Of a stretch of 64,000 nt of DNA, positions 3,652 through 61,696 are shown piece by piece; within the stretch, counting starts at the first letter, position 1, and every line of letters starts with the position of its first letter. The notes under the pieces are model-generated. The model ran no database searches. It was given only the letters and a program-made list of their open reading frames with translations, and was not told where the DNA came from. A program made the position numbers and the translations under genes. The stretch is from Amycolatopsis cihanbeyliensis. GTDB lineage: Bacteria > Actinomycetota > Actinomycetes > Mycobacteriales > Pseudonocardiaceae. The stretch is from assembly GCF_006715045.1 (NCBI RefSeq), contig NZ_VFML01000001.1:1116001-1180000 (forward strand), given 5' to 3'.

Positions 3652-3915
3652 TCAGTTGTGCCCGGCCTGGATGGCGGCCTGCAGGCCGATGAGCCTTCTG
3701 CGTTCGTCCTCGTCGAGGCGGGCCTGCTCGGCGCGGCTCACCACGTGCGCATCCGGCCCCGGGAAGATCAACGAGATCCGGTCGTCGGCCAGCCATCTGA
3801 CGAGGTAGGGCGGTGTCCCGTCCCGGTCGCGGATCTCGGCGATCTGGCCACGCTGGTCGGTACTGCCGGTGGCGGTGCCCCTGACCACCAGCCAGTCGCC
3901 TGGTTGCGCTCGCAT
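3652..3915 (-). CDS. DUF1918 domain protein
   Basis: The protein has 87 residues starting MRAQPGDWLVVRG at the ATG 3915-3913, with a GAGGGGAC ribosome site upstream. The pattern GDWLVVRG...RGQIAEIRDRDGTPPYLVRWLADDRISLIFPGPDAHVV is the DUF1918 family, a small SH3-like fold common in actinobacteria and often near stress genes. Function is unknown. A longer frame extends upstream, but it runs through the Rv1733c-like gene and is not used here. It lies 10 bases after that gene and 13 bases before the CBS-BON gene, so it probably belongs to one minus-strand operon. Confidence 0.8.
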   Translation of the reverse strand: MRAQPGDWLVVRGTATGSTDQRGQIAEIRDRDGTPPYLVRWLADDRISLIFPGPDAHVVSRAEQARLDEDERRRLIGLQAAIQAGHN

Positions 3916-21970: not shown

Positions 21971-22672
21971 GGGACTGTCTCGTAATTGATCTTGTGGTTG
22001 GTGTTGCTGGTGTTGCTCAGCCAAGGAGGTGGATGTTGTGCAGGTGGGCGATTCCGGACACCGTGTCGTTGAGCGTGCTGGCGGCGCGGCGGTAGTCGCG
22101 CAGGATCTTCCAGCATTTCATCCTGGCCAGGGCGTGCTCGACGCGGGCACGAATCGTACGGTGGCCAGCGTTGAGGTCTTCCTTCCAGTCCGGCAGATCA
22201 CTACCGTCACCAGGCTTGCGATATGGCATGATCACCTCGGAGTTTCCCTGGTAGCCGCCATCGGCCAGCACCGGGCGTCCGGCCAGTTCCTGCTGGATTC
22301 CGGAGTCCCGGTAGACGGTACAGTCGTTGCGGTTGCCCGGATGCGCGTCGCCGGTGGCGATCACCCGGTGCGCCGCGGAATGCGACACCCCGAACAGCGG
22401 CCCGATCTGGCGCATCGTCAGGTTCGTCCGCCAATAGGTCGCCACCAGCAGCACACGATCGGCCAGGTCAAGCCGCCACTGACGACCAGGACGGCCATCG
22501 GCGATCTCCTCACCACCACGCGCCGCCACCACCCGCACCAGCTTCCGGAACTGGCCCGGCTCCAACCCCGTGAACGGGGCAATCCACTCCGACCGCGACG
22601 CCGAGATCACCCGCACCACAACATGATCAACCACCGGCACAACCACACCCACACCGGGTTACGAGACAACCC
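21971..22672 (-). mobile_element. IS5-family element, internally deleted
   Basis: Imperfect terminal inverted repeats are visible: GGGACTGTCTCGTAA at 21971-21985 and TTACGAGACAACCC at 22659-22672. They enclose one transposase frame. At about 700 bp the element is shorter than usual for this group, in keeping with the transposase deletion. I could not find a convincing target-site duplication. Confidence 0.7.
22017..22652 (-). pseudogene. IS5-family transposase with internal deletion
   Basis: The frame is open for 211 residues. The N-terminal helix-turn-helix part (GLEPGQFRKLVRVVAARGG...TMRQIGPLFGVSHSAAHRVI) is joined directly to the catalytic part (ATGDAHPGNRNDCTVYRDSG, VLADGGYQGNSEV, RARVEHALARMKCWKILRDYRR). 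In relatives about 50 residues lie between these, including the first catalytic aspartate (DGTLVP-type motif), and here they are missing. The frame is kept but the DDE triad is incomplete, so the enzyme should be inactive. Confidence 0.75.
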
Positions 22673-22685
22673 TTAGGCTCACGGC

Positions 22686-23157
22686 ATGAGCACACAGCAC
22701 CTACGAGCCGCCCGCGTCACAGACCCACGGCCCCTGCTGCTGTCGCTCAAACCACGCTTCGCCGAAGCCCTGCTCGACGGCACCAAGACCGTAGAACTGC
22801 GCCGGACACGCATCACCGCGCCCCCAGGAACCCCACTCATCCTCTACGCCAGCGCCCCCACCATGGCCGTTGTCGGCGTGGCGACCCTGCACCAGAACGA
22901 AACCGACACGCCCAACCACATCTGGCGTCGTCACCGCCCCCGGGCTCGGATTCACCGGGACCGAGTTCAACACCTACCTCCACGGCACCACCCTCGCCAC
23001 AGCCCTCACCATCACCGAGCCCCAGCGACTCCTCGAACCACCCAGCCTCGCCGCACTCCGCACGACCTCCACCTTCCGACCACCACAGAGCTACCGCTAC
23101 CTCACCAATCTCGACCCCGCCGTCCTCCACCACGCACTCGCCTCCCTCACCACCTAA
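22686..23157 (+). pseudogene. ASCH-domain protein, one frame break
   Basis: From ATG 22686 the product reads PLLLSLKPRFAEALLDGTKTVELRRTRITAPPGTPLILYASAPTMAVVGVATL, an ASCH fold (RNA-binding, PUA-like). Near 22915-22930 the frame changes and continues as APGLGFTGTEFNTYLHGTTLATALTITEPQRL...YRYLTNLDPAVLHHALASL with a stop at 23155-23157. One small indel separates it from an intact gene of about 157 codons. It sits next to the IS5 remnant. Sequence error is possible. Confidence 0.6.
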
Positions 23158-23288
23158 GTTGTTTAGCGACTAACCAACCGACAGCTCTGGCCCGCTCCGA
23201 CTGATCCTTCCGCGTTCCATACCGGACCTCGGTCCACACCTCGCCATGAGCAACCGACGATATGGCGCACGACGCCGGAGAGAAGTTG

Positions 23289-42917: not shown

Positions 42918-43745
42918 TCACTCCCTGTTGAAGCCACGCACCGCGACCGAGCCACCGGCCAGTGCGATCACCGTGCAGACACCCACCGTGATGAACACGG
43001 CGCCGCCGGTCGGCTCGCCGAGCACCATGGCCCTTGCCGCGTCGATGCCGTAGGTGAGCGGGTTGATCGCGGCGAAAAACTCGATGTAGTCGGGCATGCT
43101 GGCCAGCGGCACGAACGCGGAGGAACCGAATTGCAGCACCATCAGCAGCAACATGCTCAGCGTGTGCAGGTTCTCCGAACCACCCAGCCAACTCGCCGCG
43201 GCCAGGAACACCCAACCGAAGCTCCACGAGATGACCAGCGAAAGCAGGACGGCTCCCAGCATGCCCGGCACCCCGCCCGCCGCCGTGAACTCGAAGACCA
43301 CCATCGCGGTGATCAGCAGGATGGTCACCTCGATCGCGGCGCGGACCAGGCCCGCGATACTGCGCCCGACCAGCACCGAAACTCGGCTGATCGGCATGGA
43401 TCGCAGGCGGGAGATCACCCCGTTCTTCATGTCGGCGGCCAGCCCGACTCCCGTGCCCACGGCCGCCGCTATGCTGGTCACCACGATAATCGCGGGCATC
43501 AAATAGTCCACATAGGACACATTGTCGGGGAAATAGGACGTCTCCCCGATGGCGCGCAGGACCTGGCTGAACAGCAACAGCAGCACGAGCGGCTGCAGCA
43601 GGCTGAAGAAGATCCGGGTCGGGGAGAACACCGGCCGCAGCGAGCGGCCCGCCAGTACCACGATCTGGGTACCGATGCCGCTCCCCTCCCAGCTCTGCCC
43701 GGTGAGGACGGCACGCTCGTGCTTCCGCTCGGAGACAGCCGTCAT
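42918..43745 (-). CDS. ABC-2 type permease (DrrB-like)
   Basis: The start ATG 43745-43743 overlaps the stop of the ATPase gene; the product has 275 residues. It has six hydrophobic segments, the first in the region SLLQPLVLLLLFSQVL, and the ABC-2 motif MKNGVISRLRSMPISRVSVLVGRSIAGLVR, the cytoplasmic loop diagnostic of the DrrB/NodJ group. It should form the membrane part of a drug exporter with the 43742-44710 ATPase. Context suggests export of the NRPS product and/or self-resistance. Confidence 0.9.
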   Translation of the reverse strand: MTAVSERKHERAVLTGQSWEGSGIGTQIVVLAGRSLRPVFSPTRIFFSLLQPLVLLLLFSQVLRAIGETSYFPDNVSYVDYLMPAIIVVTSIAAAVGTGVGLAADMKNGVISRLRSMPISRVSVLVGRSIAGLVRAAIEVTILLITAMVVFEFTAAGGVPGMLGAVLLSLVISWSFGWVFLAAASWLGGSENLHTLSMLLLMVLQFGSSAFVPLASMPDYIEFFAAINPLTYGIDAARAMVLGEPTGGAVFITVGVCTVIALAGGSVAVRGFNRE

Positions 43746-44710
43746 GTCGGCACCCCCGAGTGCGCCTCGGCCACGGCGTCCCCGCTCCCGGTCAGCGCGA
43801 GGTAGACATCGTCCAGCGTCGGCTCGGTCAGCGCCAGCTCGGCCGGTTCGATCCGCGCGTCGTCCAGTGCGCGGACGACGGCGGCCATCCGGCTGGAATG
43901 CTCGAGCGGTGTGACCACAAGCTGCCGGGAGTCGTCCCTGCTCGGCCCGAACCCGGCTTGCCGGATCGCCGTGAACGCCGCGGACACGGCGGATGCGGAG
44001 CGCAGCCGGATGCTCAGGCTCTGCTGCCCCACCTGGCTCTTCAGCTCGGTCGGCGTCCCGGAGGCAGTCACCCTGCCGCGGGACAGCACCACGATCGAGT
44101 CGGCCAGCCGGTCGGCCTCGTCGAGGTACTGGGTGGTCAACAGAACCGTGGTGCCTTCGGCAACGAGTCGCTGGACGATCTCCCACATGGCGGCCCTGCT
44201 GCCGGGGTCGAGGCCGGTGGTCGGCTCGTCGAGGAACACCACCTGCGGCAACCCGACCAGGCCAGCCGCCAGGTCCAGCCTGCGCCGCATCCCACCTGAG
44301 TAACCGCCGACCGCGCGGTCGGCCGCCTCGGTGAGGCCGAACACCTCCAGCAGCTCGGCCGCGCGGGTTCTGGCCTGGCGCCGGGTCGCGCCCAGCAGCC
44401 GGGCGATCATCACCAGGTTCGCCCTGCCGGTCAGGTCCTCGTCGACCGAGGCCAGCTGGCCGGTCAGCCCGATCCTCCTGCGCACCTGCTTACTCTGGCC
44501 GACCACGTCGAAGCCGGCCACCCGCGCGGTCCCCGCGGACGGGGTGATCATCGTGGTGAGGATGTTGATCAGGGTGGTCTTACCGGCCCCGTTGTGGCCC
44601 AGCAGGCCGAGCACCGTGTTCGGGGGCACCTGGATACTCACCCGGTCGAGCGCGACCACGTCGCCAAATGTCTTGCCGACCTCGGTCGCCTCGACCACCG
44701 GCTCGGTCAT
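43742..44710 (-). CDS. ABC transporter ATPase (DrrA-like)
   Basis: The protein has 322 residues: Walker A LLGHNGAGKTTLI, signature YSGGMRRRLDLAAGLVG, Walker B VVFLDEPTTGLDPGSR and switch His region TTQYLDEADRLADSIVVLSRGR. The C-terminal extension (about 230-322) ends EPTLDDVYLALTGSGDA, the DrrA-type tail required for exporter assembly. It energises the adjacent permease. A second DrrA/DrrB pair lies at 59681-61473, so the cluster has two related exporters. Confidence 0.92.
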   Translation of the reverse strand: MTEPVVEATEVGKTFGDVVALDRVSIQVPPNTVLGLLGHNGAGKTTLINILTTMITPSAGTARVAGFDVVGQSKQVRRRIGLTGQLASVDEDLTGRANLVMIARLLGATRRQARTRAAELLEVFGLTEAADRAVGGYSGGMRRRLDLAAGLVGLPQVVFLDEPTTGLDPGSRAAMWEIVQRLVAEGTTVLLTTQYLDEADRLADSIVVLSRGRVTASGTPTELKSQVGQQSLSIRLRSASAVSAAFTAIRQAGFGPSRDDSRQLVVTPLEHSSRMAAVVRALDDARIEPAELALTEPTLDDVYLALTGSGDAVAEAHSGVPT

Positions 44711-44846
44711 CGATCCTCCACCCCCGGCAAACCCTTTCGGCGGTGACGCTACGAGCCACGCACCGGGAGCTCAAGCGGAACGTAAGAATCTGAATACTCT
44801 GCCGACCAAAGTATCGTGGTTTCCACCCTGGTGGGACGGGAACGCC

Positions 44847-46088
44847 CTATTCCAGGCGCACCGGCAACGTCTCCAGCCCACGTGTCATGTTGGCCTGCCA
44901 GCGCAGCTCGGCGGCGGGTACGGCCAGCTCGATCCGGGCGAACCGGTCCAGCAACGCGGAGAACGCCACCTTGGCCTCGAGCCGGGCCAGCGGGGCACCG
45001 AGGCAGTGGTGTATACCGTGCCCGAAGGCGGTGTGCCCCCCGGCGTCCCTTGTGCTGTCGAACCGGTCGGCGTCGGGGTAACGTTGCTGGTCACGGTTGG
45101 CCGAGCCGAGGGCGGCGAGGATGAACTCGTCACCGGGGACCCGCACGTCACCGATGTCCACCGGTTCGCTCGTGTACCTGAGCGTGGCGACGTGCAGCGA
45201 GTTCTCGTAGCGAAGAAGCTCCTCGATCACGCTGGGGAGCAACGAGCGATCGGCGCGCAGGGCCGCCAACTGCTCGGGATGGCTCAGCAGCACGAACGTC
45301 CCGTTGCCGATCAGGTGGGCCGTGGTGTCATAACCGGCGACGAGCAGCTGGAACACCATCGAGACCAGCTCGTCCTCGCTGAGCCGGTCCCCGGAGTCCC
45401 GCACCTGGATCAGTCCCGAGATCAGCGTGTCGTCGGGAGACCGGCGTTTCTCCGCGATCAGCCCGGCGAGGTAGCCCGCCATCTCGTCCGCCACCTGGCC
45501 GAGGTCATCCGCACCAGCCGCGACGATCATCTTGTCCGCGATGGTGGCGAACCGCTCCCGGTCCCGCTCGGGTACGCCGAGCAGCTCGGAGATCACGGTG
45601 ATCGAGAACGGGAAGGCGAACGCCCGCAACAGATCGACCTGCTCGCCGGCCAGCCCGGAAAGCAGCCGGTCGGCGATGCGCTCGACCTCCGGGCGCAGCG
45701 ACTCGATCCGGCGCGCGGTGAACACCGCGCTGACCAGCTTACGCAGCCGCTGGTGGTCCGGTGGATCCATGTTGAGCATGTGCCCGACCAGCATGCGCCG
45801 GCCGGGAGAGGGCTCACCGGCGTCCGGCTGCCCCGCGGGCGCGCCCTGCTCCGACCGGCCGAGCTGGCGCGCGGTCAGCTCCGCGACCCGGGCCGGGTTC
45901 TTGCGGATCCGGGGATCGGCGAGCACGGCGCGAACGTCCTCGTACTCGCTCACCAGCCACATCCGCAACCCGTGGAAGACCACGGGCCGGACCGGATGCT
46001 CCGCACGGAACCGCTCGTACAGTGCATACGGGTCGCGCACGAAGCCCATGTCCAACTGCTCGGCTTCCGCGGTCGTGTGCTCGGCCAT
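44847..46088 (-). CDS. Cytochrome P450
   Basis: I start at ATG 46088 ([12 protein letters not shown]) with GGAGGG upstream; the product has 413 residues. I-helix oxygen-binding motif AGYDTTAHL, ExxR motif as EELLR, PERF-region PDADRF and heme loop [15 protein letters not shown] with the cysteine ligand. It is a soluble class I bacterial P450 that needs ferredoxin, none of which is encoded nearby. It is likely a tailoring oxidase for the NRPS product. It lies 49 bases after the other P450 gene. Confidence 0.92.
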
Positions 46089-46137
46089 GAGTCCAGCCCT
46101 CCAGTCGTGGTTCGGCACCTCTCGCGGTGCAACGGCG

Positions 46138-47391
46138 TCAGGTGCCGGCCGACGCCAGCCCGTTCTCGTCCGGATGGAACCGGACCGGCAGCCTGGAGAC
46201 GCCGGCCATCAGATTGGAATGAATCGGCCGTGGCTCGCCGGTGACCTCGAAGCCGGTGGTGAAGGAACGCAACGCGTCCAGCAGTTCCCTGACCTCGACC
46301 CTGCCGAGGAAGGCGCCGAGGCAGAAGTGCGGCCCGTAGCCGAAGGTGACGTGCTTGTTGGGCTTCCTGCCGAGGTCGAAACGGTACGGGTCGTCGAACA
46401 CCGCCTCGTCCCGGTTCGCCGCGATGTTCCACAACGTCACCACCTCGCCCTCGGCGATCCGCTGCCCGCCGACCTCGACATCGGTCAGCGCCGTGCGGCC
46501 GAAGTGCATGGCCGGGGTGGCCCAGCGCAGGACCTCCTCGGTAGCGGTGTCCAGGTCGACCTCGCCGTCCTTGAGCAGCCGCCACTGGTCCGGGTGCTGG
46601 GTCAGGCTCAGCACCAGATCGCTCATCGTCAACCTGCTGGTCTCGTCTCCACCGAGAATCAAGCTGTAGCAGTTGAACACGATGTCGTGGTCGCTGATCA
46701 GCTCGCCGTCCACCTCGGTCTGGGTGAGCACGCTGATGACATCGTCCTTCGGGTCCTTGCGCCGCTCGGCGACCAGGTCGGTGAAGTAGAGCAGGATCTC
46801 GTTGCGGGCCAGCCAGGCGTCCGCCTCGGACTGGTCCGCGTCGTCGGAGCTCAACGCCGACTTGGTCATGTTGAGCAGGTGTGAACGGTCCTCCACCGGC
46901 ACGCCGAGCAGGTTCGAGATGGTGGTGATCGGGATCTGCGCCGCGATATCCTTGGCGAAGTCGCACTCACCGCGCCGCACCGCCTCCGCCACCAGCTCAC
47001 GGGTGTTCTCCCGCACCCATTCGGACACCCGCTTGAGCGCGCGCGGCGAGAACGCCTTGAGCATCACGTTGCGCAGGTCCTTGTGCCGCTTGCCGTCGGT
47101 GACGGCGAGCATCTGCCCGGCCGCCGAGTCACTTCCGGCCAGCAGGGTGACCAGCACGTTGCCCTTCTCCGACGTGAAGTTCTTGTCGTCGCGGTACACG
47201 GACATCACGTCGGCGTGCTTGCTGATCACCCAGAAACCGGGGTTGCCGTCGACCGGCGGGTGCCAATGGACCGGAAACTCGGAACGCAAGCGCCGCCAGT
47301 ACTCCGTCATGTCGTTATCGATATATGTACTCGGATCGACCAGGTTGATCGCCAGGATCTCGTCCGGCACATTGCTCGTTCGCGTGCTCAA
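46138..47391 (-). CDS. Cytochrome P450, possibly acting on carrier-bound amino acid
   Basis: The TTG at 47391 gives 417 residues ([20 protein letters not shown]), with a GAGG site five bases upstream. The I-helix is [13 protein letters not shown], an unusual form with Glu and Ser; the ExxR motif is EEVLR and the heme loop is [15 protein letters not shown]. The GGDETSR type resembles, by memory, P450s that hydroxylate carrier-protein-bound amino acids or peptides. That role is an inference from the position directly after the large NRPS gene, with a 171-base gap. Confidence 0.9.
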
Positions 47392-47562: not shown

Positions 47563-50500
47563 TCATTTGATGTCCCGCAGCTTTTCGGTGATTATCCGGC
47601 CGACCTCAGCGGCTGGTTCCGGCTGCATCATATGCGCGTGGGTACAGCCGACCACCCGATATTCGATCTTTCCATCCACATACGGCCGCCAGCGCTCGGC
47701 CCGCGTGGCCAGCTCGGTATCGGGGATCGCGCGATCCTGCTCGGCGACGACCATGAACAGGTCACCGGGATAGACGGTGGGCCGGAAGTCCCGCAGTATT
47801 CGCCAGTTGTTGGTGAACACCTTCGCCAGCGAAGCGATGTCGGACTCGCTGAGCGTCGCCAGCACGCTCTGCCGCTCGCGCAGGATCTCGGCCACCTCGG
47901 CATAGCTCACCCGTTCCGTGCCCAGCCGTGCCAGGTCGTATCCGGCGTGGTCGAGCAGGCCACGCAGTGTCTCCTGCTCGTCGACCTGATGCTCGGCGGG
48001 CATCTGCTCGTGGTCGATCGGGTACTGGTCGAGATTGGCGAGCAGCCCGACCTCCTCGCCCTCGGCTCGCAACTGGGCCGCGATGGCGTGGATGACCAAG
48101 CCGCCCTGGGACCAGCCGAGCAGATGGTACGGACCGGTCGGCTGCACGCCGCGCATCAGCTCGACGTAGTCGGCGGCCATCTCCTCGACGCTTCCCGGCA
48201 GCTCGGCTTCCGGATCGGCAAGGCCCCTCGCCTGCAGGCCGTAGATCGGATAGTCGGCGTCGACGTGCCGGAGCAGCACGGAATAGACCCAGCTCAACCC
48301 GCCGACCGGAGGCGCGCAGAACAGCGGCGGCTTGCTGCCGGTCGGCCGCAGCGGCAGCAGCACGTCGAGCGAGTCCCGCTCGGCGTCACCGACCAGCCGC
48401 GGCACCAGCTCGGCCACCGTGACCGCCTCGAAGATGGTCCGGATGTTCAGCTTCACCCCGAAGGTAGACCGGATCTTGGCGACGAGGGACATCGCCATGA
48501 TGCTGTCCCCACCGAGTTCGAAGAAGCTGTCGTGGACACCGACGACCTCGGCTCCAAGGACGTCCCGGAACAGTCCACAAAGGATCTCCTCCTGCGGGGT
48601 GCGTGGCCCGGTCGAGTCCGCCCGTTCGGTGGCGGGCGCCGGCAGCACCTTCCGGTCGAGCTTGCCGTTCGGGGTGAGCGGGAGCTCGGGCAGCGTCACG
48701 AAGGCCGCGGGAACCATGTACTCGGGCAGCTTCCCGGACAGCCGGTCACTCAGCTCCCGCGCGCCCGGCTCGGTCCCCTCCCCCGCGGGCACGACGTAAG
48801 CGACCAGCTGCCGCGCACCGGGCCGGTCCGCACGCACGACCGTCGCGGCCGCGGCGATATCCGGATCCGCCGTGAGCGCCGCGGTGATCTCGCCGAGCTC
48901 GATGCGGAAGCCGCGGAGCTTGACCTGGTCGTCGGCACGCCCGACGAACTCCAGCTGCCCGTCCTGCCGCCACCGCACCATGTCGCCGGTGCGGTACATC
49001 CGATCGCCCGCCTTCCCGAACGGGTCGGCCACGAACCGCTGTGCCGAAAGACCCGGCCGGTTCAGGTACCCGCGGGCCAGCCCGGCTCCGGCGACGTACA
49101 ACTCACCGGTCACCCCCACCGGTGCCGGCCGCAGCAGGTGGTCCAGGACGTAGACCCCGCTGTTGGCCACCGGCCGCCCGATCGGCGGCACCGTGTCACC
49201 GGAGAGCGGCTCACTCATCGTGGCGCACACCGTGGTCTCGGTCGGGCCGTACGCGTTGATCATCCGGCGCCCCGGTGACCACTGCCGTACCAGGTCCGGG
49301 GTGGCCGCCTCACCCGCCACGACCAGGGTCATCCCGTCCGGCAGGCCACCCGTGGGCAGCGCCGACACCACCGCGGGCGGCAGGGTCGCGTGGGTCACCT
49401 CCTGCTCGGCCAGCAGGTCCGCCAGCGGCTGGCCGGCGAGCCCGCCCTCGGGCGCCAGTACGAGCGTCGCCCCGGACAGCAGGCTCATGCACAGCTCCCA
49501 GAAGGCCGCGTCGAAGCTCACCGGGGCGAACTGCAGCACCCGGCTGCCCGGTCCCACGTCAAGGCGTTCCAGCTGGGACGCGAGCAGGCTCGCCGCGCCC
49601 CGGTGGGTGACGACCACACCCTTGGGCCTGCCCGTCGACCCCGAGGTGTAGATGACGTAGGCCGGGTTCGACCTGGCCGGCGCCGCGCGGTCCACCGCGT
49701 CGTCCGGAAGGGCCGCCAGCGCCGCGGCCGTGTCCTCGGCGTCCAGCAGGACGCGGGGGATCCCCGGATCCGGGAGCCCGCCGGCCACCCGACCGGTGGT
49801 CAGCAGCAGCACCGGCGCGGAGTCCTCCAGCAGGAACGAGATGCGCTCGGCGGGATACTCCGGATCGACGGGAAGGTATGCCGCACCGGCCTTCAGCACC
49901 GCCAGCAACGCGACGATCAGCTCGGGCGAGCGGGGAACGGAGACCGCGACGAGGCATTCGGCCCCGATGCCCCGCTCCACCAGGAAGCGTGCCAACCGGT
50001 TGGCACGCGCATCGAGCTCGGCGTAAGACAGCGTGACCTCGCCGGACAGTAGGGCCGGCGCGTCCGGCGCGGACCGCACCCGCTCCGCGAACAGTTCGGG
50101 CACCGATGCGGAAGGCACCGCGCGCTCGGTGTCGTTCCAGGTGCCCAGCACCCGCTGCCGTTCCTCGCCGCGCACCAGCTCGACCCGCCCGACCGGCATG
50201 TCCGGGTCGGCGACCATCGAGTCGAGCACAGCGCGGAACCGGCCGGCGACAGCCTCGATCCAGTCCCGCTCCAGCAGGTCCGGCCGGTAGCTGAACCGCA
50301 GCCGCAACCTGCGGCCCGGCATGACGACGACGCTGATCGGGTAATGGCTGGCGTCCGCGCCGTAGACCCCGACCGTGCGCACGCCGAGGCCGGATCCCGC
50401 GGAGTCACCGAACGCCGCGTCGTCCAGCGGGTAGTTCTCGGTGACCGTCATGGTGTCGAACAGGGTGTCCACCCCGACCAGGCGCAGCAGGTCGTGCAGC

Positions 50501-53500
50501 CCGAGGTAGTGATGGTTCATCAACGAACCCTGCTGCCGCTGCACCCGTTCGAGCAGCCCGGCCAAGGACTCCTCGCCACGGAGCTGGACACGCACCGGCA
50601 GGGTGTTGATGAACAGCCCGACCATCGTGTCCACACCGGCCACGTCCGGCGGCCGCCCGGACACGGTGCTGCCGAACACGACGTCGTCGCGACCGGTCAG
50701 CTGGCCGAGCAGGATGCCCCAGGCGGCCTGCACCAGGGTGTTCAGCGTGACACCACACCGGCGGGCGAGCGCGGTGACCTCGGCCGTCTCACTCTCCGGC
50801 AGGTCGAGCAGCACGTCGTCGGGCACGGTGGACACCTGGCCGGTGGCCTCCGGCGCGACCAGCGTCGGTTCGTCCACTCCGGACAGAACATCCAGCCACG
50901 CCCGCTCGGCGGCCTTCCGGTCCTGCCCGCTCAGCCAGGAAAGGTAGTCCCGGTAGGGGGCCACGGGCGGCAGGTCGGCGTCGTCGCCGGCCGCGTACAG
51001 CCGGAACAACTCGCCCATCACCAGCGGGCCCGACCAGCCGTCCAGCAGGATGTGGTGGCTGGTGAACACGAACCGGAACCGCTGCTCGCCCAGCCGCACC
51101 AGGGTGAACCGCAGCAGCGGCGGCCGCTCGAGGTCGAACCGCCGCACCCGGTCGGCGGTCATCACCTCGCCCAGCCTGGCCCGCTGCTCCTGCCCGGTGT
51201 CGCCGGAAAGGTCGACCTCGAACCACGGGAGGTCCACCTCGGCGCGCACCACCTGCACCGGCCGGTCGAGGCGTCGCTGGTGGAAGCCCGCCCGCAGGTT
51301 CGCGTGCCGCCGCATCAGCAGCGATGCCGCCGTGCGGAGCCGCTCCACGTCGAGCTCGCCCTCGAGGTCGACGCCGAGCTGTGCGGTGTAGACATCCAGC
51401 TCGTCCTCGTCGTACTGCGCATGGAACAGCAAGCCCTCCTGTAGCGGGGCGAGCGGGAGGATGTCCTCGAGCGGCTCAGGCTCGGCTTCCTCGACCATGT
51501 CGATCTCGTTCTGGGCCAGCGGCACCAGCGGCAGGTCCGAGGGACTGTGCCCGCCCGCGTTCGGCCGCTCGACATGCCGGACGAGGGCTTCCAGCGCGCT
51601 GAACCAGTGCTCGCCGAGCTCCCGGATCTCGTCCGCGGTGAACAGCTCGCTCGCCCACGTCCATGCCGCCACCAGCTTGGGGCCGTCCGGGCCGTCCTGC
51701 GTCTGCGCGTTCAGCTCGATGGCGTGCGCCAGCGGGCGGTCGGCCTCGTCCCTGCCGGGAGCGTCCACCGGCTCGGGAGCGAAGTCCCACTCCCGCAGGG
51801 CGTGCTCGGCGGACCGGGTCCCGACGGCGAACCGGCCGAGGTAGTTGAAACCCACCTGCGGATGCGCCTTGCCGGCCAGCAGCGGGCTGGTCTGCTGGTT
51901 GAGGTAACGCAGCAGCCCGTAGCCGAGCCCGTTGTCCGGCAGCCCACGCAACTGCTCCTTCACCTTCTTGAGCGCCCTGCCGGCGGCGGGCCCACCGGCG
52001 CGGAAGGTATCCCAGTCCTGCTGGCCCGGATCGAGCCGGACGGGAAAGAGGCTCGTCAGCCAGCCGACCGTGCGGGAGAGGTCGACGTCGTCGAAGATGT
52101 CCTCCCTGCCGTGGCCCTCCATGTTGACCAGCACGGGACTGCCGCCCTCTCCGCTCCTGCGCTCGCGCCACTCGGCGAGGGCGACCGCGAAGGCGGTGAG
52201 CAGCACGTCGTTGATCCCCGCGTGGAACGCCGCGGGCACGGTGGTGAGCAGCGCCGAGGTCAGCTCGGTCGGCAGCGACAGCATCTGCACCCGCGCGGTG
52301 GCGGTCACGTCGCGCTCCGGGTCCAGCGGCCGGTCCGCCAGCCGCGGGTCGGGCTCGTTCAGCACGTCGAGCCAGACCGGGAGTTCCTCGGTGCGCTCCT
52401 GCTGCTGGGCGGCGTCGTTCAGCCGTTGCGCCCACTCGCGGAAGGAGGTGTGCACCGGTTCCAGTTCCGGGGTCTGCCCCGCGTTCACCGAGGTCCACGC
52501 CTGAGCGAGATCGGGCACCAGGATGCGCCAGGACACCCCGTCCACCACCAGGTGGTGCGCGGCGATCAGCAGCCTGCCCTGCTGCCGCGGGCCGGCGTCG
52601 AACCAGACGAACTCGACGGTCTTCCCGCTCTCCGGGTCCAGCCCGCCCCAGACCTCCTCGGCCTGCTCGGCGACGCACGCCCGGAACCTGGCACTGTCCA
52701 TCCCGGACGTGTCGACCCTGCGGATGTGGTCGGCCGCGCGGATCTCGCCACGTGGCGGAATATCCAGGTTCCACACCACGCCGCCGGCGCGGCGCAGTCG
52801 CATCCGCAACACGTCGTGCCGATCGAGCAGCGCCTGTACCGCCTTCTCCAGGCTGTCCGCGCCGAGCTCGGCGGGCACGACGAGCATCATGGTCTGGTTG
52901 AACCGGCCGACGCCACCGCCGCGCTCGCGCATCCAGTGGATGATCGGGGTGAGCGGCACCGACCCGATGCCCTCCTCGCTCGCGGCCGGCGCGACCTGCC
53001 CCGCCGGTGTGTCCACAGTGGCCACCGCAGCCAGCCCTGCCACCGTCTTGTACTCGAACACGTCCCGCGGGGACAGCTTGACGCCCTCCTTGCGGGCGAG
53101 ACGGACAAGCTGGACGGACATGATGCTGTCGCCACCCACGTCGAAGAAGTTGTCGTGGATGCCCACCCTGTCCAGCCGGAGGATCTCGGCAAACAGCTCG
53201 CAGAGGGTCTCCTCTACCGGGGTGCGCGGCCGGTCACCCGTGGACGTCACGTACTCCGGGGCGGGTAGCGCCTTGCGGTCCAGCTTGCCGTTCGGAGTCA
53301 GCGGGAACTCCTCCAGCGCGACGACCGCGGACGGCACCAGGTGGCCGGGCAGCTCGGCGGCCAGCCGGTCACGCAGTTCGGTGGGCACCGGGGTCACGCC
53401 CGGTTCCGACACGACATAGGCGACCAGCCGGTCTCCTTGCGGATCCGCGCGGACGACCACCTCGGCCCTGGCCACCTCCTGCTGGGCGAGCAGCGCGGAC

Positions 53501-56500
53501 CTGATCTCGCCGAGCTCGATCCGGAACCCGTGTACCTTCACCTGTTCGTCGGTGCGGCCCAGGAAGGTCAGTTCGCCTTCCGGCGTCCAGCAGGCAAGGT
53601 CGCCGGTGCGGTACAGCCGGTCCCCGGAACCGAAGGGGTTCGCCACGAACCGCTCGGCGGTCAGGCCGGGCCTACCAAGGTATCCACGGGCGACGCCGGC
53701 GCCCGCGACGTACAGCTCGCCCGTCACGCCCGGTGGTACCGGCCGCAGCATGGAGTCCAGTACGAACGCGCGGGTGTCGTTGATCGGCGTGCCGATCGGT
53801 GGCACGACCGCACCGGCCAGTGGGCCGCTCATCGTGGCGCAGACCGTGGTCTCGGTCGGGCCGTACGCATTGATCATCGTCCGGCCCGCGGACCACCTGC
53901 CGACCAGTTCCGGCGGCGTGGCCTCGCCCGCGACCAGCAGCACCATGCCAGCGGGCAGCTCGTCGGTCGCCATCGCGCCCAGCGCCGCGGGGGGAATCGT
54001 CGCGTGCGTGACGCCCCGCTCGGCGAGCAGCGCCGCCAGCGGCGCGCCGGGGCTCAGCCGTTCCGGCGGCGCCAGCACCAGCGCGGCTCCGGTCAGCAAC
54101 GCCTGCACGACCTCGGCGAACGCGGCGTCGAAGCTGGGCGAGGCGAACTGCAGCACCCGGCTGCCGGGGCCGAGCCCCATCGCGTCCCGGTACGCGGCGG
54201 CCAGGCCGACGAACCCGGCGTGCGGGACGACGACACCCTTGGGCCTGCCGGTGGAACCGGAGGTGTAGATGAGGTAGGCCGGGTTCCGCGGGCTGACCGG
54301 GACATCCGGTGCCCCGCTCGGCGCGTCCGCGACCCTGCGCGCCGTCGCGGGGGCATCCAGCACCAGTGGCCGCCCGGGGTCGAGCTCCCCGAGGGTGGCC
54401 GACAGCGCCTCGGTGGTCACCACGACACCGGGTCGGGCGTCGCTCAGCAGGTAGGCGATCCGATCGGCGGGATACTCCGGGTCGATCGGCAGGTAGGCCG
54501 CACCGGCCTTGTGCACGGCGAGCGCCGCGACCATCCAGTCGACCGACCTCGGCAGCAGGAGCCCGACGACCCGCTCGGGCCCGGCACCTTCCGCGCGCAG
54601 CACGTGTGCCAGGCGGTTCGCCCGCTCGTCGAGTTCCGCGTAGGACAGCTCGGTGTCCTCGGCCAGCACGGCGGGATCGTCCGGTGCCGACCGCACGCGC
54701 TCGGCGAACAGCTCGGGGAACGTCCGCGCGGGCAGGTCCAGGGTCGTGGCGTTGGCCGAATCCATGATCAGCCCACGTTCGTCCGGCGTGAGCAGGTCGA
54801 TCTCGGTGAGTCGCTGCGTCGGATCGTCCGCCACCGTGTCCAGCAGCCGCGCCAGGCGGTCGATGATGCTTCGCACGGTGGCCCGGTCGAACAGGTCACG
54901 CCGGTAGTCGACGTACCCGGCCAGGCCGGTGGGGGCGCCTTCGGTATCGGTCGTCTCGTTGAAGCTGAACGCGAGATCGAACTGGGTGGCGTTGATCGAG
55001 ACAGGGTGCGCCGCGAAGTCCAGTCCCGTCGTGTTGGCCGCGCTCGGATCGTCCAGCGGGTGACGGCGGTTCTGCAGGTTGAGCCAGACCTGGAACAGCG
55101 GGTGCCAGGCAAGGGAGCGTTCCGGGTTCAGCACCTCGACCAGCCGCTCGAACGGCACCTCCTGGTTGGCGTACGCCGCGAGGTCGAACTCCCGAACCCT
55201 GGTGAGCAGCTCGCCGAAGGTCGGGTTGCCGGAAAGGTCGGTCCGCAGCACGAGCGAGTTCACGAAGAACCCGACCAGGCCCTCCAGCGCGCTGTCGTTA
55301 CGGCCGGCGACCGGGGAACCGAGTGGCACGTCCTGGCCCCCGCCCAGCGCGGACAGCAAGGCCGAAAGGCCCGCCTGCAACACCATGAACAGGCTCGTCC
55401 CGGACTGCCTTGCCAGCGCCGCAAGCTTGCCGTGCAGTTCCGGCCCGAGCTCGACGGCGAGGGTGTCGGCGGTGTAGTCCGCCTTCTCCGGTCGAGCGCG
55501 GTCGGTCGGGAGCGGTAGGACATCGGGCAGCCCACTCAACCGGTCCTGCCAGAACTCCAGCTGCTTCCGGATGGCGCTGTCCGGATCGCTCTCCGAGCCG
55601 AGCACATCGTAGGTCCACATGGTGTAGTCGGCGTACTGCACGGGCAACGGCTGCCAGGACGGCGCGTGCCCCCCGATCCGGGAGACGAAGGCCTCGGCCA
55701 GGTCGGTGAAGAACGGTCCCTGCAGGGAGATGCCGTCGCCCGCGATGTGGTGCAGCGCGATGACCAGCACGTGCTCGTTCCTGTTCAGCGCGAACAGCGT
55801 CGTGCGCAGCGGCGTTTCGGCCGTCAGGTCGAAGCCCCGCCGTGCCTCGGTGGCGACGGCGTCGTCGAGTTCTTCCTCGGATACGGGAACCACGTTGAGT
55901 TCGGGACAGCCCATCTCCGGGTCCAGAATCTCCTGGTACGGCGTTCCGTCGACCTCAGGGCAGACCGTCCGCAGGCTCTCGTGCCGGGTCGCGACGTCGC
56001 GCAACGCCAGGCGCAGGGCTTCCCGGTCCAGCTCGCCGCTGATCCGCAGGGCCATGCTGAGGTTGTGCGCGGAGTTGTCCGTGTCGAAACGGTTCATGAA
56101 CCAGAGCCGGCGCTGAGCATAGGACAGCGGTATCCGCTCCGGCCGCTCCACCGCGCGGACGGCGGGGCGGGCCTCCGCCGCGCCGCCGATCCTCGTCACC
56201 AGCTGCGCAACGGTCGGCGCTTCCCAGAGCGCGCGCACCGGGAGCTCGACGGCGAACACCGCGCGTGCCCGGCTGACCAGGCTGGTGACATGCAGCGAGT
56301 GCCCGCCGAGGTCGAAGAAGTTGTCGTGGATACCGACCCTGCCCAACCGGAGAACCTCGGCGAACAGCCCGCAGAGGATCTCCTCCTGCGGCGTCCGGGG
56401 AACATCGTCGGTGACCATTCCCGCGAAGTCGGGTTCGGGTAGGGCCTTACGGTCCACCTTCCCATTCGGCGTCAACGGAAACTCATCCAACACCACAAAC

Positions 56501-59298
56501 GCCGACGGCACCATATAATCCGGCAACCGCTCACCCACACACCCAGCCAACACACCCACATCCACCACACCACCAGACACCGGAACCACATACGCCACCA
56601 ACCGACGCACACCCCCACCATCCGACACCACCACCACACACCGACCCACACCCACACACCCCGCCAACACAGCCTCAACCTCACCCAACTCAATCCGAAA
56701 ACCCCGAACCTTCACCTGATCATCAGCCCGCCCCACAAACTCCAACACCCCATCACCACGCCACCGCACCACATCCCCCGTCCGATACATCCGCTCACCC
56801 ACACCACCAAACGGACACGCCACAAACCGCTCCGCCGTCAACCCAACCCGACCCCGATACCCACGAGCCACACCCTCACCCGCAATATACAAATCCCCCG
56901 CAACACCCACCGGAACCGGACACAACCCCCCATCCAACACAAACACCCGATTATTCAACACCGGCCCACCAATCACCGGAACACCCTCACCCACCACCGA
57001 CGCCGTCGACCACACCGTCGTCTCCGTCGGCCCATACAAATTCGTCACCTCACCCGACAACCCCACCAACCGCTCCGCCAACCCCACCGGCAACGCCTCA
57101 CCACCCACCAACACCCGCACACCCGCCACCACATCCGGACACTCCGCCACCAACGCCTCCCACAACGTCGGCGTCGCCTGCACCACCGAACCACCCGACA
57201 CCTCCACCAACTCACCCAACCGCGCCACATCACGCACCTCATCACGCCCAGCCACCACCACAGCCGCACCCGACACCAACGGCACAAACAACTCCAACAC
57301 CGCAATATCAAACGCCACCGTCGTCACCGCCACCAACCGATCACCCCACGACAAACCAAACCGATCCCGCATCCCCACCACAAAATTCGTCAAATTCCCC
57401 CGCGACACCACCACACCCTTCGGACGCCCCGTCGAACCCGACGTATAAATCACATACGCCACACTCGACCACAACACCGAACCCCGCAACTCACCCACCA
57501 ACACATCCTCACCAGACAACCCCACCAACCAATCCCCCACCACCGGATCATCCAACTCCACCCGACACACACCCTCCACATCAGGAACCACACCCCCCAC
57601 CACAGAATCCGTCAACACCACACCCGGACACGCATCCCGCACAATAAACTCCACCCGCTCCCTCGGATACTCCACATCCAACGGAACATAACCACCACCC
57701 GCCTTCAACACCGCCAACAACGCCACCACCAAATCCACCCCACGCGGCAACGCCACACCCACCAAACACTCCGGCCCCACACCCAAACCCACCAACAACC
57801 GCGCCAACCTATTCACCCGCACATTCAACTCACCAAACGACACACACTCCCCACCCACCACCAACGCAACCCCATCCCCACCAACACCCACAACACCCTC
57901 AAACAACCCCACCACAGAACAACCACCCACAACACCACCAGAACCATTCCACCCCACCAACACACAATCCCGCTCAACCCCAGAAAGCACATCAACCCTG
58001 CCGACCGGAAGGGACGGAGCGTCGTGGAGCTGGTTCAGGACGGAGACCAGCCGCTCGAGGACGCGCTCGGCCTCCTCCCGGTCGAACACGTCGGGCCGGT
58101 AGCCGAGGCGCAGCCGCAACGTGCGCCCGGGGATGGGGAACAGGGTGAGCGGGTAGTGCGTGGCGTCCTGCCCGGTGGCGCCGGTGACCCGCAACGGGCC
58201 CGCTTGCATGCCGTCGCCGTCACCGCCGCCGACGGGGTAGTTCTCGAAGACCACCAGGGTGTCGAAAAGCCTGCCGTTGACCGAGGTCTGCGCCTGCGCC
58301 TCGGAAAGTGGGATGTGGTGATAGTCCAGCAACTCGCCCTGCTGACGCTGCACCCGGTCGAGCAGCTCCAGCCAGGACTCGGCCGGATCGACCCGAACCC
58401 GCACCGGTAGCGTGTTGATGAACAGCCCGATCATGGTTTCCACGCCCGGAATGTCGGCGGGTCGACCGGAAACGGTGCCACCGAACACCACGTCGTTCTG
58501 GCCGGTGAGCTTCCCGACCAGCAGGCCCCACGCCGCCTGCACCATCGTGTTCAGCGTCAGGCCGTGCTCGCGCGCCAGCGTGGTCAGCCCGCTGGTGACC
58601 TCCTCGGACAGCTCGGTGAGCACGTCCTCCGGTGGACTGGTCACCAGGTTGCTCGCCGCGGGCGCGACCAGCGTCGGCGAGTCCACACCGGACAGCGCGT
58701 CCCGCCATGCTTCCTTGGCGGCCTCCCGGTCCTGTTTCCCGAGCCAGGCAAGGTAGTTCCGGTATGGCGTCACCGGCGGGAGCGCGTCGGCACGGCCGCC
58801 CTCGGCGTAGAGGGTGAGCAGCTCCTGGATCAGCAGCGGGCTCGACCAGCCGTCGAGGAGGATGTGATGCGTGGTCAGCACGAACCAGTAGCTGTCCGCC
58901 GACAACCGGATCAGCGTGAACCGCAGGAGCGGCGGGCGTTCCAGGTCGAAGCGTTGGGCGCGCTCGCCGGCGAGGAACTCACGAAGACGGTCGGAGAGCT
59001 CGTCCTCGGTGCATCCGGAAAGGTCCAGCTCGGACCAGGGGAGCTCGACGTCGCGCTGGATCACCTGCATCGGCTCGCCGTTCTTGCGCCTGCGGAACCC
59101 GGCGCGGAGGTTCGCGTGCCTGCCCAGCACGGTGCCCGCGGCGGCGCGCAGCGCCCGCACGTCCAGCTCACCCTCCAGCTTTACCGCCAGCTGGGTCGTG
59201 TAGACGTCCATGGCATCGTCGTCGTACTGCGCCTGGAAGAGCAAGCCTTCCTGCAGTGGCGACAGGGGAAGGATGTCCTCGATCCGTGACCGCTTCAC
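47563..59298 (-). CDS. Trimodular NRPS: C-A-PCP / C-A-PCP-E / C-A-PCP-TE
   Basis: Start GTG 59298, 3911 residues. Module 1: C (DCL type, HHILLDGWS about 144), A (A3 core about 613), PCP (GGHSLH about 996). Module 2: C (LCL type, HHIAGDG about 1182), A (about 1672), PCP (GGDSIMS about 2057), E ([10 protein letters not shown] about 2247, EGHGRE). Module 3: C (HHILLDGWS about 2752), A (about 3216), PCP (GGDSIMA about 3596), TE with GWSQGG about 3730. Pocket codes read by eye: A1 DILQLGLVWK (glycine); A2 DAATLAAVCK (unusual, aromatic-like, alanine at the Trp239 position); A3 DAWTVAAVCK (phenylalanine). The DCL start fits the upstream NRPS ending in E. Expected end of the peptide: D-X, Gly, D-aromatic, Phe-like, then TE release. 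Confidence 0.95.
56455..57995 (-). other. Glycine A domain with foreign codon use (domain swap)
   Basis: Within the large NRPS, the coding strand here ends most codons in G or T (GTG, GGT, TTG, TGT, GAT), while both sides use C or G. On the plus strand this shows as long runs of CAC, CCA and AAC. The change is abrupt at about 57995 (protein [17 protein letters not shown] linker) and about 56455 ([12 protein letters not shown]10). The unit is therefore almost exactly one adenylation domain. Confidence 0.8.
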
Positions 59299-59680: not shown

Positions 59681-60481
59681 TCAGCGAGCGGCCGCGCGCT
59701 GGAAGGCGCGAACGGCTTTCGGTACGGCGATGGCGAACAGCACGGCCAGGCCCAGCAGCGAGAACAAGACCGGATTCCGCACCGGCAGGCCGGCGTCCGC
59801 CCCGATGCCGGTGGGATTGCCCCACATCTCCCGCGCCGCGGTGGTCACCGCGCTGACCGGGTTCCACTCGGCGACGGTGCGCAGCCAGCCGGGCAGGTTG
59901 CTGAGGGGGAAGAACGCCGCGGAGAGGAAGGCGAGCGGCATGGTGACGAAGGAACCGATCGCGTTGACCGCCTCCGCGTTACGCATCGCGAGCCCGATCC
60001 ACGCCCCGAGCCAGGCCATCGCCAGGCCGAGCAGGAAGATCAGCAGGAAGCCGCCGAGCACGGCCAGCACCCCACCGCTGATCCGCCACCCGATGAGGTA
60101 CCCGACGGCCGTCATCACCATGCACGAGATGACGGTCGTCACCAGGTCCGAAACGGTACGTCCGATCAGTACCGAAACGTGCGAGATGGGCAGCGAGCGA
60201 AACCGGTCCACCAGCCCGTTGTGCAGGTCGGTGGCGACGCCGACAGCCGTGGTCGATATCCCGGCGAGCATCACCATCGTGAAGATGCCGGGCATGATGT
60301 ATTCCTTGTAGTCACCGCCCGGTACCTGCATCGAGCTACCGAACAGGTAACCGAATATGACGACCATCGCCACCGGCATGATGGTGGCACTGATCAGCTT
60401 CTGCGGGACCCGCTTGGTGTGCCGTAGGTGCCTGCCGATCAGCGCCGCCGAATCGCTCAGCAGCAGGTTCATCGCGGTCAT
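59681..60481 (-). CDS. ABC-2 type permease (DrrB-like), second exporter
   Basis: The ATG 60481-60479 shares a base with the ATPase stop; the product has 266 residues. It has six membrane segments (SATIMPVAMVVIFGYLFGSSM; VLAVLGGFLLIFLLGLAMAWLGAWIG) and the ABC-2 loop HNGLVDRFRSLPISHVSVLIGRTVSDLV. The C-terminus NPVLFSLLGLAVLFAIAVPKAVRAFQRAAAR is typical of DrrB. It partners the ATPase at 60481-61473 and sits between the two NRPS genes on the same strand, strongly suggesting export of the NRPS product. Confidence 0.92.
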   Translation of the reverse strand: MTAMNLLLSDSAALIGRHLRHTKRVPQKLISATIMPVAMVVIFGYLFGSSMQVPGGDYKEYIMPGIFTMVMLAGISTTAVGVATDLHNGLVDRFRSLPISHVSVLIGRTVSDLVTTVISCMVMTAVGYLIGWRISGGVLAVLGGFLLIFLLGLAMAWLGAWIGLAMRNAEAVNAIGSFVTMPLAFLSAAFFPLSNLPGWLRTVAEWNPVSAVTTAAREMWGNPTGIGADAGLPVRNPVLFSLLGLAVLFAIAVPKAVRAFQRAAAR

Positions 60482-61473
60482 CACACTGCTCCCGTTCCGT
60501 TGGCCACGGCGGCGACGTCTCTCGCGCCGTCGCCGTGCCGGCGATTTCCGGTCAGCTCGAGGAAGACATCGTCCAGCGACGGTCGCCTGACGACGAAGTC
60601 GACGACGTCGATACCGCCGCGTTCCAGCGCGTTCGCGGCGGCGGCGATGCCCCGCACGCCGGTCTCCAGTGCCACCGAGACCCGCAGCCCGGAGTCGTCG
60701 ACCACCGGGGTGGCCGGTTGCGCCTCGGTGAGCGGCTCGATCGCGGCCGCCGCCATCTCGGTGGTCGACACCGAGATCTCGAGCCGCTCGCCGCCGACCC
60801 TCCGCTTCAGCTCGTCCGGGGCGCCCTCGGCGACCACGCCGCCCTTGTCGATCACGGCGATCCGGTCGGCGAGATAATCGGCCTCCTCGAGGTACTGCGT
60901 GGTCAGCAGCACGGTGACGCCGGCGGCCACCTGCTCCTTGACCATGTCCCACAGCGCCGCGCGGCTGACCAGATCGAGCCCGGTAGTCGGCTCGTCCAGG
61001 AAGAGCACCGGTGGTCGAGCCATCAGGCTGGCCGCGAGGTCCAGCCTCCGCCGCATCCCGCCCGAGTAGGTCCTTACCGGACGGTCGGCCGCATCGACCA
61101 GGTCGAACCGCTCCAGCAACTCGGCAGTGCGCTCCCTGGCCCGCTTGCGGCCGATATGGTAAAGCGTGCCGATCAGGGTCAGGTTCTCCCTGCCGGTCAG
61201 CCAACCGTCGAGCGCGGCGTACTGGCCGGTGAGGCCGATCCGCTTACGCACTTCCCTTGCCTGCCGGACCACGTCGAAGCCGGCGATGCTGGCGCTGCCC
61301 GCGTCCGGCTCCAGCAGGGTCGCCAGCATGCGCACCAGTGTGGTCTTCCCGGCCCCGTTCGGACCGAGCACGCCGAACACGGTGCCGGAGTCGACGGTGA
61401 GGTCGACATCCTTCAGCGCTTCCACGTTGCCGTAGCGCTTGCACAGCCCTTCCGCCGAGATCGCGATACCCAT
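60481..61473 (-). CDS. ABC transporter ATPase (DrrA-like), second exporter
   Basis: I use ATG 61473 (MGIAISAEGLCKRYG), with GGAGG upstream, in place of a longer frame; the product has 330 residues. Walker A VLGPNGAGKTTLV, signature YSGGMRRRLDLAASLMA, Walker B VLFLDEPTTGLDLVSR and the DrrA tail (PSLDDVFLELTGNRRHG) are all present. It is a paralogue of the ATPase at 43742-44710. The gene is 223 bases downstream of the first NRPS. Confidence 0.93.
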   Translation of the reverse strand: MGIAISAEGLCKRYGNVEALKDVDLTVDSGTVFGVLGPNGAGKTTLVRMLATLLEPDAGSASIAGFDVVRQAREVRKRIGLTGQYAALDGWLTGRENLTLIGTLYHIGRKRARERTAELLERFDLVDAADRPVRTYSGGMRRRLDLAASLMARPPVLFLDEPTTGLDLVSRAALWDMVKEQVAAGVTVLLTTQYLEEADYLADRIAVIDKGGVVAEGAPDELKRRVGGERLEISVSTTEMAAAAIEPLTEAQPATPVVDDSGLRVSVALETGVRGIAAAANALERGGIDVVDFVVRRPSLDDVFLELTGNRRHGDGARDVAAVANGTGAV

Positions 61474-61696
61474 GAGGTTCCTCCACCCACGAAATGGTGG
61501 CGAGACCCGGCGACTCCACCGTGCCTTCGGTCTCACGCACGTGGCCCGAGGCGGGAACCACGGTACGACCAGATGGTTCCCGCCCAACGGATTGCCTGCG
61601 ACAGTAGTCGCGGCGCACCCGCGAAGACAGCTCCCTTCAATGCTTTCGATGCGATCCGGGGCAGTGCGGCCCGGGCGCCCCGCGCCGGATCGGTGC

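Follow-up and report, generated by a model that had tools for sequence, protein, structure and literature searches.

GRINS, a known kind of recoded repeat whose source paper is said to be that of Nivina in PNAS in 2021, with an abstract that reportedly mentions other gene families as well, are the closest described counterpart of the sequence considered here. Criteria and surveys of GRINS are given in the available text of two papers for polyketide synthases (PKSs) and PKS-NRPS hybrids, with a cut-off of more than 25% for GC and TA skew in one (PMC10394414) and a skew cut-off above 0.15 in the other (PMC9899208), and GRINS have an entry in the reference list of a further paper (PMC11915812). 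A second precedent comes from the NRPS genes wolG1 and wolG2, for which a shared nucleotide skew is noted in the accessible part of the report (PMC9205934). In the mostly open-access literature searched, including the available text of PMC10394414, PMC9899208, PMC11907408 and PMC9205934, we found no description of GRINS in an NRPS adenylation (A) domain. Here we describe a GRINS-type element in an NRPS that is very probably just this: a glycine-type A domain that coincides with a tract nearly saturated with G and T on its coding strand and is present in two identical copies through recent intermodule gene conversion.

The window analysed is a stretch of 64,000 nt from Amycolatopsis cihanbeyliensis (G000:C1:1116001-1180000), whose genome comprises 7.4 Mb in 2 contigs. 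Three consecutive NRPS genes, with open frames of 4761, 3697 and 3915 aa, form an assembly line with ten A domains (four in gene 1, three in gene 2 and three in gene 3), and the element lies in the third gene. The features that the argument needs are the following.

47563..59298, minus strand: NRPS gene 3 (3911 aa), modules 8-10, C-A(Gly)-T / C-A-T-E / C-A-T-TE, from condensation/epimerization-type matches, with T and TE read from the sequence
58009..59298, minus strand: condensation (C) domain of module 8, ordinary codons, 32% identity to the module 4 C domain
57994..58029, minus strand: 5' border, the last codons before the repeat, different in modules 4 and 8
56455..57999, minus strand: skew island, 515 successive G/T-ending codons that make up one complete glycine-type A domain
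56425..57993, minus strand: exact repeat of 1569 nt, 100% identity to G000:C1:1190509-1192077 (module 4, gene 1, outside the window)
56425..56454, minus strand: 3' border, 30 nt of host-style codons (10 residues) common to both copies, after which they diverge
56164..56406, minus strand: carrier (T) domain of module 8, ordinary codons, 57% identity to the module 4 T domain

Gene 3 is flanked by two cytochromes P450 and two DrrA/DrrB-like ABC transporter pairs (42918-47391 and 59681-61587).

The original prediction held that about 1.5 kb of one A domain switches to G/T-ending codons with sharp borders while the flanking C and T domains keep the host style. The switch is real and stronger than claimed: third positions of codons 434-948 of gene 3 contain no C and no A, so that 515 of 515 codons end in G or T, and the coordinates proposed (56455-57995) are right to within 4 nt. 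Both borders are indeed sharp, one lying at the Asp-Val-Leu of the C-A linker and the other directly after NGKV inside A10, and the C and T domains of module 8 have ordinary codons. Elsewhere in the gene the longest G/T-ending run is 11 codons, and at the rest-of-gene frequency of G or T at third positions (G/T3, 0.52) a run of 515 codons has a probability of about 10^-147. Even in 342 kb of other DNA from the same genome (12 stretches near some other condensation-domain matches and 8 arbitrary stretches), the longest G/T-phase run spans 32 codons. Within the run, third positions are G (0.67) or T (0.33), compared with G 0.46, C 0.45, T 0.06 and A 0.04 in the rest of the gene, and coding-strand GC and TA skews are 0.674 and 0.582, compared with 0.026 and 0.024. 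The first two codon positions shift likewise (G1 0.58 vs 0.43; T2 0.38 vs 0.29 in the rest of the gene). Over codons 437-957 (n=521), 51 of 53 Leu codons are TTG, His is absent, and Val and Gly account for 22.6% and 16.5% of residues, compared with 9.0% and 8.3% in the rest of the gene. Since residue composition is altered as well, the difference is more than one of codon table alone.

Selection on the mRNA or on translation could in principle produce such a tract, if G/T codons keep the message open or pace ribosomes, and the repeat described below would then be a separate event. Predicted mRNA folding is weaker in the tract, at -0.245 vs -0.438 kcal/mol per nt, as this explanation would have it. 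However, the amino acids change too, with a 33:1 bias among the classed changes (see below) whose cost is not accounted for by selection on codons, ordinary codons are used in the eight remaining A domains of the ten-module line, and the association of skew with repeats would have to be a coincidence. Thus, we consider selection of this kind unlikely. The tract also contains two G-quadruplex motifs, vs none in the rest of the gene, and its Gly codons move to GGT, interrupting G runs. One more island (L193), with skews above 0.3 over at least 450 bp, appears in the 342-kb sample. In the window itself (22017-23190), a weaker island at 22441-22920, whose plus strand is skewed toward C and A by means of about 0.33 and 0.40, overlaps and adjoins a DDE transposase-like open reading frame at 22017-22652 (Pfam DDE_Tnp_4, HTH_Tnp_4).

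A DNA search of the same genome returned a 100% match at G000:C1:1190534-1192077, which extends to exact identity over 1569 nt (the lower coordinate of the module 4 copy, 1190509, is derived from the offset), and across the whole genome the search showed two full-length copies only. These lie 18 kb apart, in modules 4 (gene 1) and 8 (gene 3) of one assembly line. Module 4 stands at the end of gene 1 and is followed by an E-type domain. Around the identical block the two modules differ: their C domains share 32% identity (127/391) and their T regions 57%, and by scores the module 8 C domain is of the same kind as the C domain opening gene 2 and that of the last module, whereas the module 4 C domain differs. 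An identical block beside dissimilar C and T domains means that a complete A domain has been copied from one module to another. The natural exchange of a whole A domain that had been predicted is thereby borne out as regards the unit moved, a block with joints in the C-A linker and just past A10, but not as regards a foreign source, the second copy being in the same cluster. Identity begins at GAT GTG CTT (Asp-Val-Leu in the C-A linker), two codons into the G/T-only run of module 8, and the borders of skew and repeat lie no more than 6 nt apart at one end and 30 nt at the opposite end. Other same-strand repeats of at least 200 bp and at least 75% identity in the 90-kb stretch amount to a single 211-bp match at 75%. 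We infer that the copying took place by gene conversion, probably repeated, although a single recombination event fits the copies equally. A comparison of the linkers, and of the truncated module 4 A domain in the Streptomyces line described below, gave no preference for copying from module 4 to module 8 over the reverse.

One may argue that two copies exactly identical over 1569 nt arose from misassembly, by duplication of a single skewed A domain, and a database protein (P0007, 2964 aa; longest contig 30,518) does equal residues 948-3911 except for its start residue, beginning where the G/T run ends. Nevertheless, both copies run on into distinct complete modules with open frames, and two congeners have the same arrangement, which makes an artefact hardly credible. 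As an observation in its own right, the start of P0007 at residue 948 (window position 56455) falls on the last G/T codon, which suggests that the skewed A domain is dropped at this point during gene calling or assembly.

The specificity code of the skewed domain is DILQLGLVWK, which we take to stand for glycine, and it fits the glycine-activating domain that was predicted from the sequence. Core motifs A3, A4, A5, A7, A8 and A10 are present and in order, and PDB sequence matches are NRPS A domains, the best of them (1.9e-153) being linear gramicidin synthase subunit A. Residues at highly conserved columns are retained at 157 of 169, within the ordinary range (152/176 to 169/170 in ordinary relatives), which indicates a protein under constraint. 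The skewed domain probably still activates glycine.

How the residues have changed bears on where the codon style came from. The skewed domain was compared with the majority residue of 12 ordinary glycine domains, leaving aside the identical copy in module 4, three near-duplicates and four non-actinobacterial domains, and a change was classed where one class of base change at codon position 1 or 2 accounts for it. Among 94 changed columns, 44 could be classed: 33 went from C/A to G/T, one went in the reverse direction and 10 stayed within class. In eight of the 12 ordinary relatives, for which the change spectrum is given, the pooled counts are 93 from C/A to G/T vs 129 in reverse. The skewed Gly domain of strain NBRC 109706 gives 29, 5 and 9 (43 of 73 columns classed). 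A 33:1 bias from C/A to G/T in the protein speaks for recoding on the spot and not for the codon table of another species. A deaminase-like process acting on the coding strand in one burst, with C to T and A to G changes only, would supply part of this spectrum, since these changes make up 8 and 8 of the 44, and Leu CTG to TTG is of this kind. However, C to G and A to T, with 10 and 7 cases, occur just as often, and Thr is ACG in 16 of 16 cases in the tract (rest of gene: ACC 118, ACG 68, ACT 2, ACA 2), where C to T alone would give mostly ACT. With transitions and transversions both common and Thr all ACG, a pure deaminase burst is highly improbable, and we rejected an origin by deamination only because the two are mixed. 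The choice between G and T fits the relative use of G/T-ending codons in the rest of the gene better than it fits a C-to-T rule, with Gly as a departure (GGT 55, GGG 31).

The original prediction attributed the codon style to horizontal exchange, in which the A domain would have come recently from an organism that normally uses G/T-ending codons and would not yet have been ameliorated. Sharp borders are in keeping with this, and so is the fact that the genus yielded no near-identical relative with ordinary codons among the matches listed. In 79 other genomes of the genus, with four candidates scored per genome, no donor was found among the matches listed, the best being 74% over 824 nt, 80% over 521 nt and 68% over 1478 nt. 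Nor was one found among plasmid records, of which 155 matched; the best of them (68% over 91% of the query) is itself a skewed A domain. A phage search with the A domain gave no match. When the module 8 C domain was searched against 390 genomes of the family, the best identity outside its own genome was 56% among the matches listed (four candidates per genome). Horizontal DNA before amelioration should have its nearest relative in another lineage, with matching genome-wide codons, and no such relative appeared among the matches listed from the genomes sampled. Foreign donor codons are therefore not supported, given the identical copy in the same cluster and best matches listed from the genus that are 68-80% alike over 521-1478 nt.

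A tree points the same way; of its 51 A domains, chosen from 345 collected, 26 are Gly-type and the remainder come from this line and that of Streptomyces sp. NBC_01214 or are other skewed domains. It places the skewed domain among the actinobacterial glycine domains, in a clade with support 96/93, on an end branch of 0.71 and with no firm position inside the clade, a long branch that a horizontal origin would also allow. Skewed domains do not make up a single group: the Gly-type domain of NBRC 109706 belongs to the glycine clade, its Thr-type domain groups with module 1 of our line and other domains of that code (DFWNVGMVHK, presumably Thr; 95/85), and the G053 pair sits by itself on a very long branch, with no ordinary-codon relative in the tree. 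The fine placement is unsafe because the program flagged the skewed domain and several others for odd amino-acid make-up. The skewed Gly- and Thr-types thus group by specificity and not by skew. Moreover, the same dialect occurs in A domains of other codes and species, the protein changes follow the skew, and an absence of C- and A-ending codons from 515 matches the codon table of no genome that we know of. With a full-length identical match in the same cluster, a recent foreign origin is thus very unlikely.

A homologous line allows the position of the domain to be compared directly. The cluster of Streptomyces sp. NBC_01214 is likewise laid out in 4+3+3 modules, and the A domain of its module 8 (the same glycine code, DILQLGLVW; 56-57% identity) is encoded by ordinary codons (G/T3 0.48). 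The codon style is hence not universal at the homologous A domain, a circumstance on which the original prediction had made itself depend. C domains at the same position share 50-62% identity between the two lines. Three of ten C domains (modules 2, 7 and 8) are closer to another NBC_01214 position, by a margin of 0.01-0.02, as are four A domains (2, 3, 7 and 9), and the T domain of our module 8 scores 0.67 to the NBC_01214 module 5 T domain vs 0.54 to that of its module 8. Judged by these sequences, the NBC_01214 line is a homologue and not a close orthologue. Its module 4 A domain (L162 gene 1, residues ~3660-3870) is shortened to about 210 residues, and its last module (L164/L163, end of gene 3) consists of C, T and TE, with no A domain; modules 4 and 10 look as if the A domain were loaded in trans or had decayed. 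NBC_01214 also has a repeat of its own, 2456 nt at 89.7% identity and less strongly skewed, in two adjacent gene 1 modules (L162 6319-8756 and 9529-11966), with an 840-nt skew island in each of the two modules.

Similar islands occur in other actinobacteria. Outside the genome studied, A domains with G/T3 of at least 0.93 are, among the loci gathered, the G053 pair and the Thr-type and Gly domains of NBRC 109706. Their runs start at reference positions 423-471 and end at 898-990, compared with 437-951 here, on a reference where WNG lies at 453, A10 at 947 and the T motif at 998. Five tabulated domains all prefer GTG over GTT, GGT over GGG, and ACG, CCG, GCG and TCG, and Leu is TTG in 50 of 50 cases both in our domain and in G053, and in 47 of 57 and 49 of 59 in the NBRC 109706 domains. 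A Streptomyces plasmid (NBC_01435) carries a skewed A domain that likewise starts abruptly after the C domain. The congener G001 has two islands, 206 and 204 codons long and made up wholly of G/T-ending codons, which begin past A5 and extend to the T domain; the two modules carry different codes (DAATVAAVC and DVQYVAHVV), so that the tract spares the specificity pocket. The G001 pair has 13 differences in 668 sites, all within the outer 27 and 9 nt, and the G053 pair six in 1748 sites, all within the outer 17 and 3 nt; these stretches are local alignments, in which mismatches at the ends are expected, and it is their absence inside that counts. Together with our pair, G001 and G053 are the members of the genus with the most intense islands among these loci, at a mean GC skew of at least 0.58, a line set after seeing the list; G058 comes next (mean GC skew 0.53), with partners 92% and 71% alike.

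More broadly, 52 islands come from 25 of 128 loci (overlapping or near-duplicate loci excluded), and 50 of them have G/T on the coding strand; the loci were collected by similarity to this A domain, and the rates are not a census. One of the only two in the opposite direction is a glycine A domain at L171 (G393:C11) 1621-2340, with C/A on the coding strand, G/T3 of 0.25 and a GC skew of -0.29. Leaving out four islands in stretches shorter than 12 kb, a repeat of at least 90% identity is found in the same stretch for 25 of 48 islands, the members of a pair being counted twice, vs five of 138 control windows, and the other 23 islands have no such repeat in the gathered stretch. The Gly- and Thr-type islands of NBRC 109706, which are nearly saturated, had no near-identical copy among 40 candidates scored for each; the best matches in that genome were 71% over 1386 nt for one and 69% over 1655 nt or 78% over 313 nt for the other. 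Hence, intense skew does not require a repeat at present. In summary, pairs in three genomes are identical inside, end with the skew and fit conversion, while two saturated islands of NBRC 109706 stand without a close copy.

Besides gene conversion between modules, our preferred reading, we infer that skew and conversion are causally linked. We propose a model whose basis here is the strand bias and the link to repeats. A G/T-rich non-template strand would favour R-loops or exposed single strands during transcription, which is the weakest step; these in turn would promote intermodule recombination as well as mutation or repair with a strand bias, and skew and homogenisation would thereby reinforce each other. 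A more tentative idea, which we find possible but doubtful, is that a G/T-saturated strand in NRPSs acts as a self-homogenising exchange cassette, in which the recoded A domain, or the part after the pocket, is converted as a unit and the skew borders are tolerated fusion points. If so, these borders would be a map of natural fusion points for A-domain engineering. Should skew and conversion be linked, searching NRPS genes for uninterrupted runs of G/T-ending codons would yield a catalogue of natural exchange units and fusion points useful for engineering. The locus itself is an unusually clean natural example of a whole A domain copied between modules whose C domains are unrelated and whose T domains differ, with joints readable to the nucleotide, and the complete recoding of third positions (515 codons, with a 33:1 bias in the classed protein changes) makes the cause of GRINS testable by mutation spectra.

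Set beside the described systems, the element extends the GRINS phenomenon to NRPS adenylation domains. Where GRINS call for a repeat of at least 500 bp in the same line at more than 80-90% identity, this one measures 1569 nt at 100%, and its GC and TA skews are far above both published cut-offs. GRINS are defined in assembly-line PKS genes, whereas this gene is an NRPS, and for this reason we keep the label "GRINS-type". The likeness thus lies in a tract of about a kilobase with a near-identical region in the same line, GC and TA skew far beyond 25% and a recoded protein, and the difference in the NRPS gene, in a unit that is one complete A domain, and in G/T third positions without exception over 515 codons. 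With wolG1 and wolG2 the locus shares the exchange of A-domain DNA between NRPS genes of one genome (PMC9205934). According to the accessible text of that report, the region from A2 to A5/A6 was exchanged, the specificity changed and the minor parent lies ~3 Mb away (PMC9205934). In contrast, the block described here reaches to A10, both copies carry the glycine code and are separated by 18 kb, and the skew stops where the block stops.
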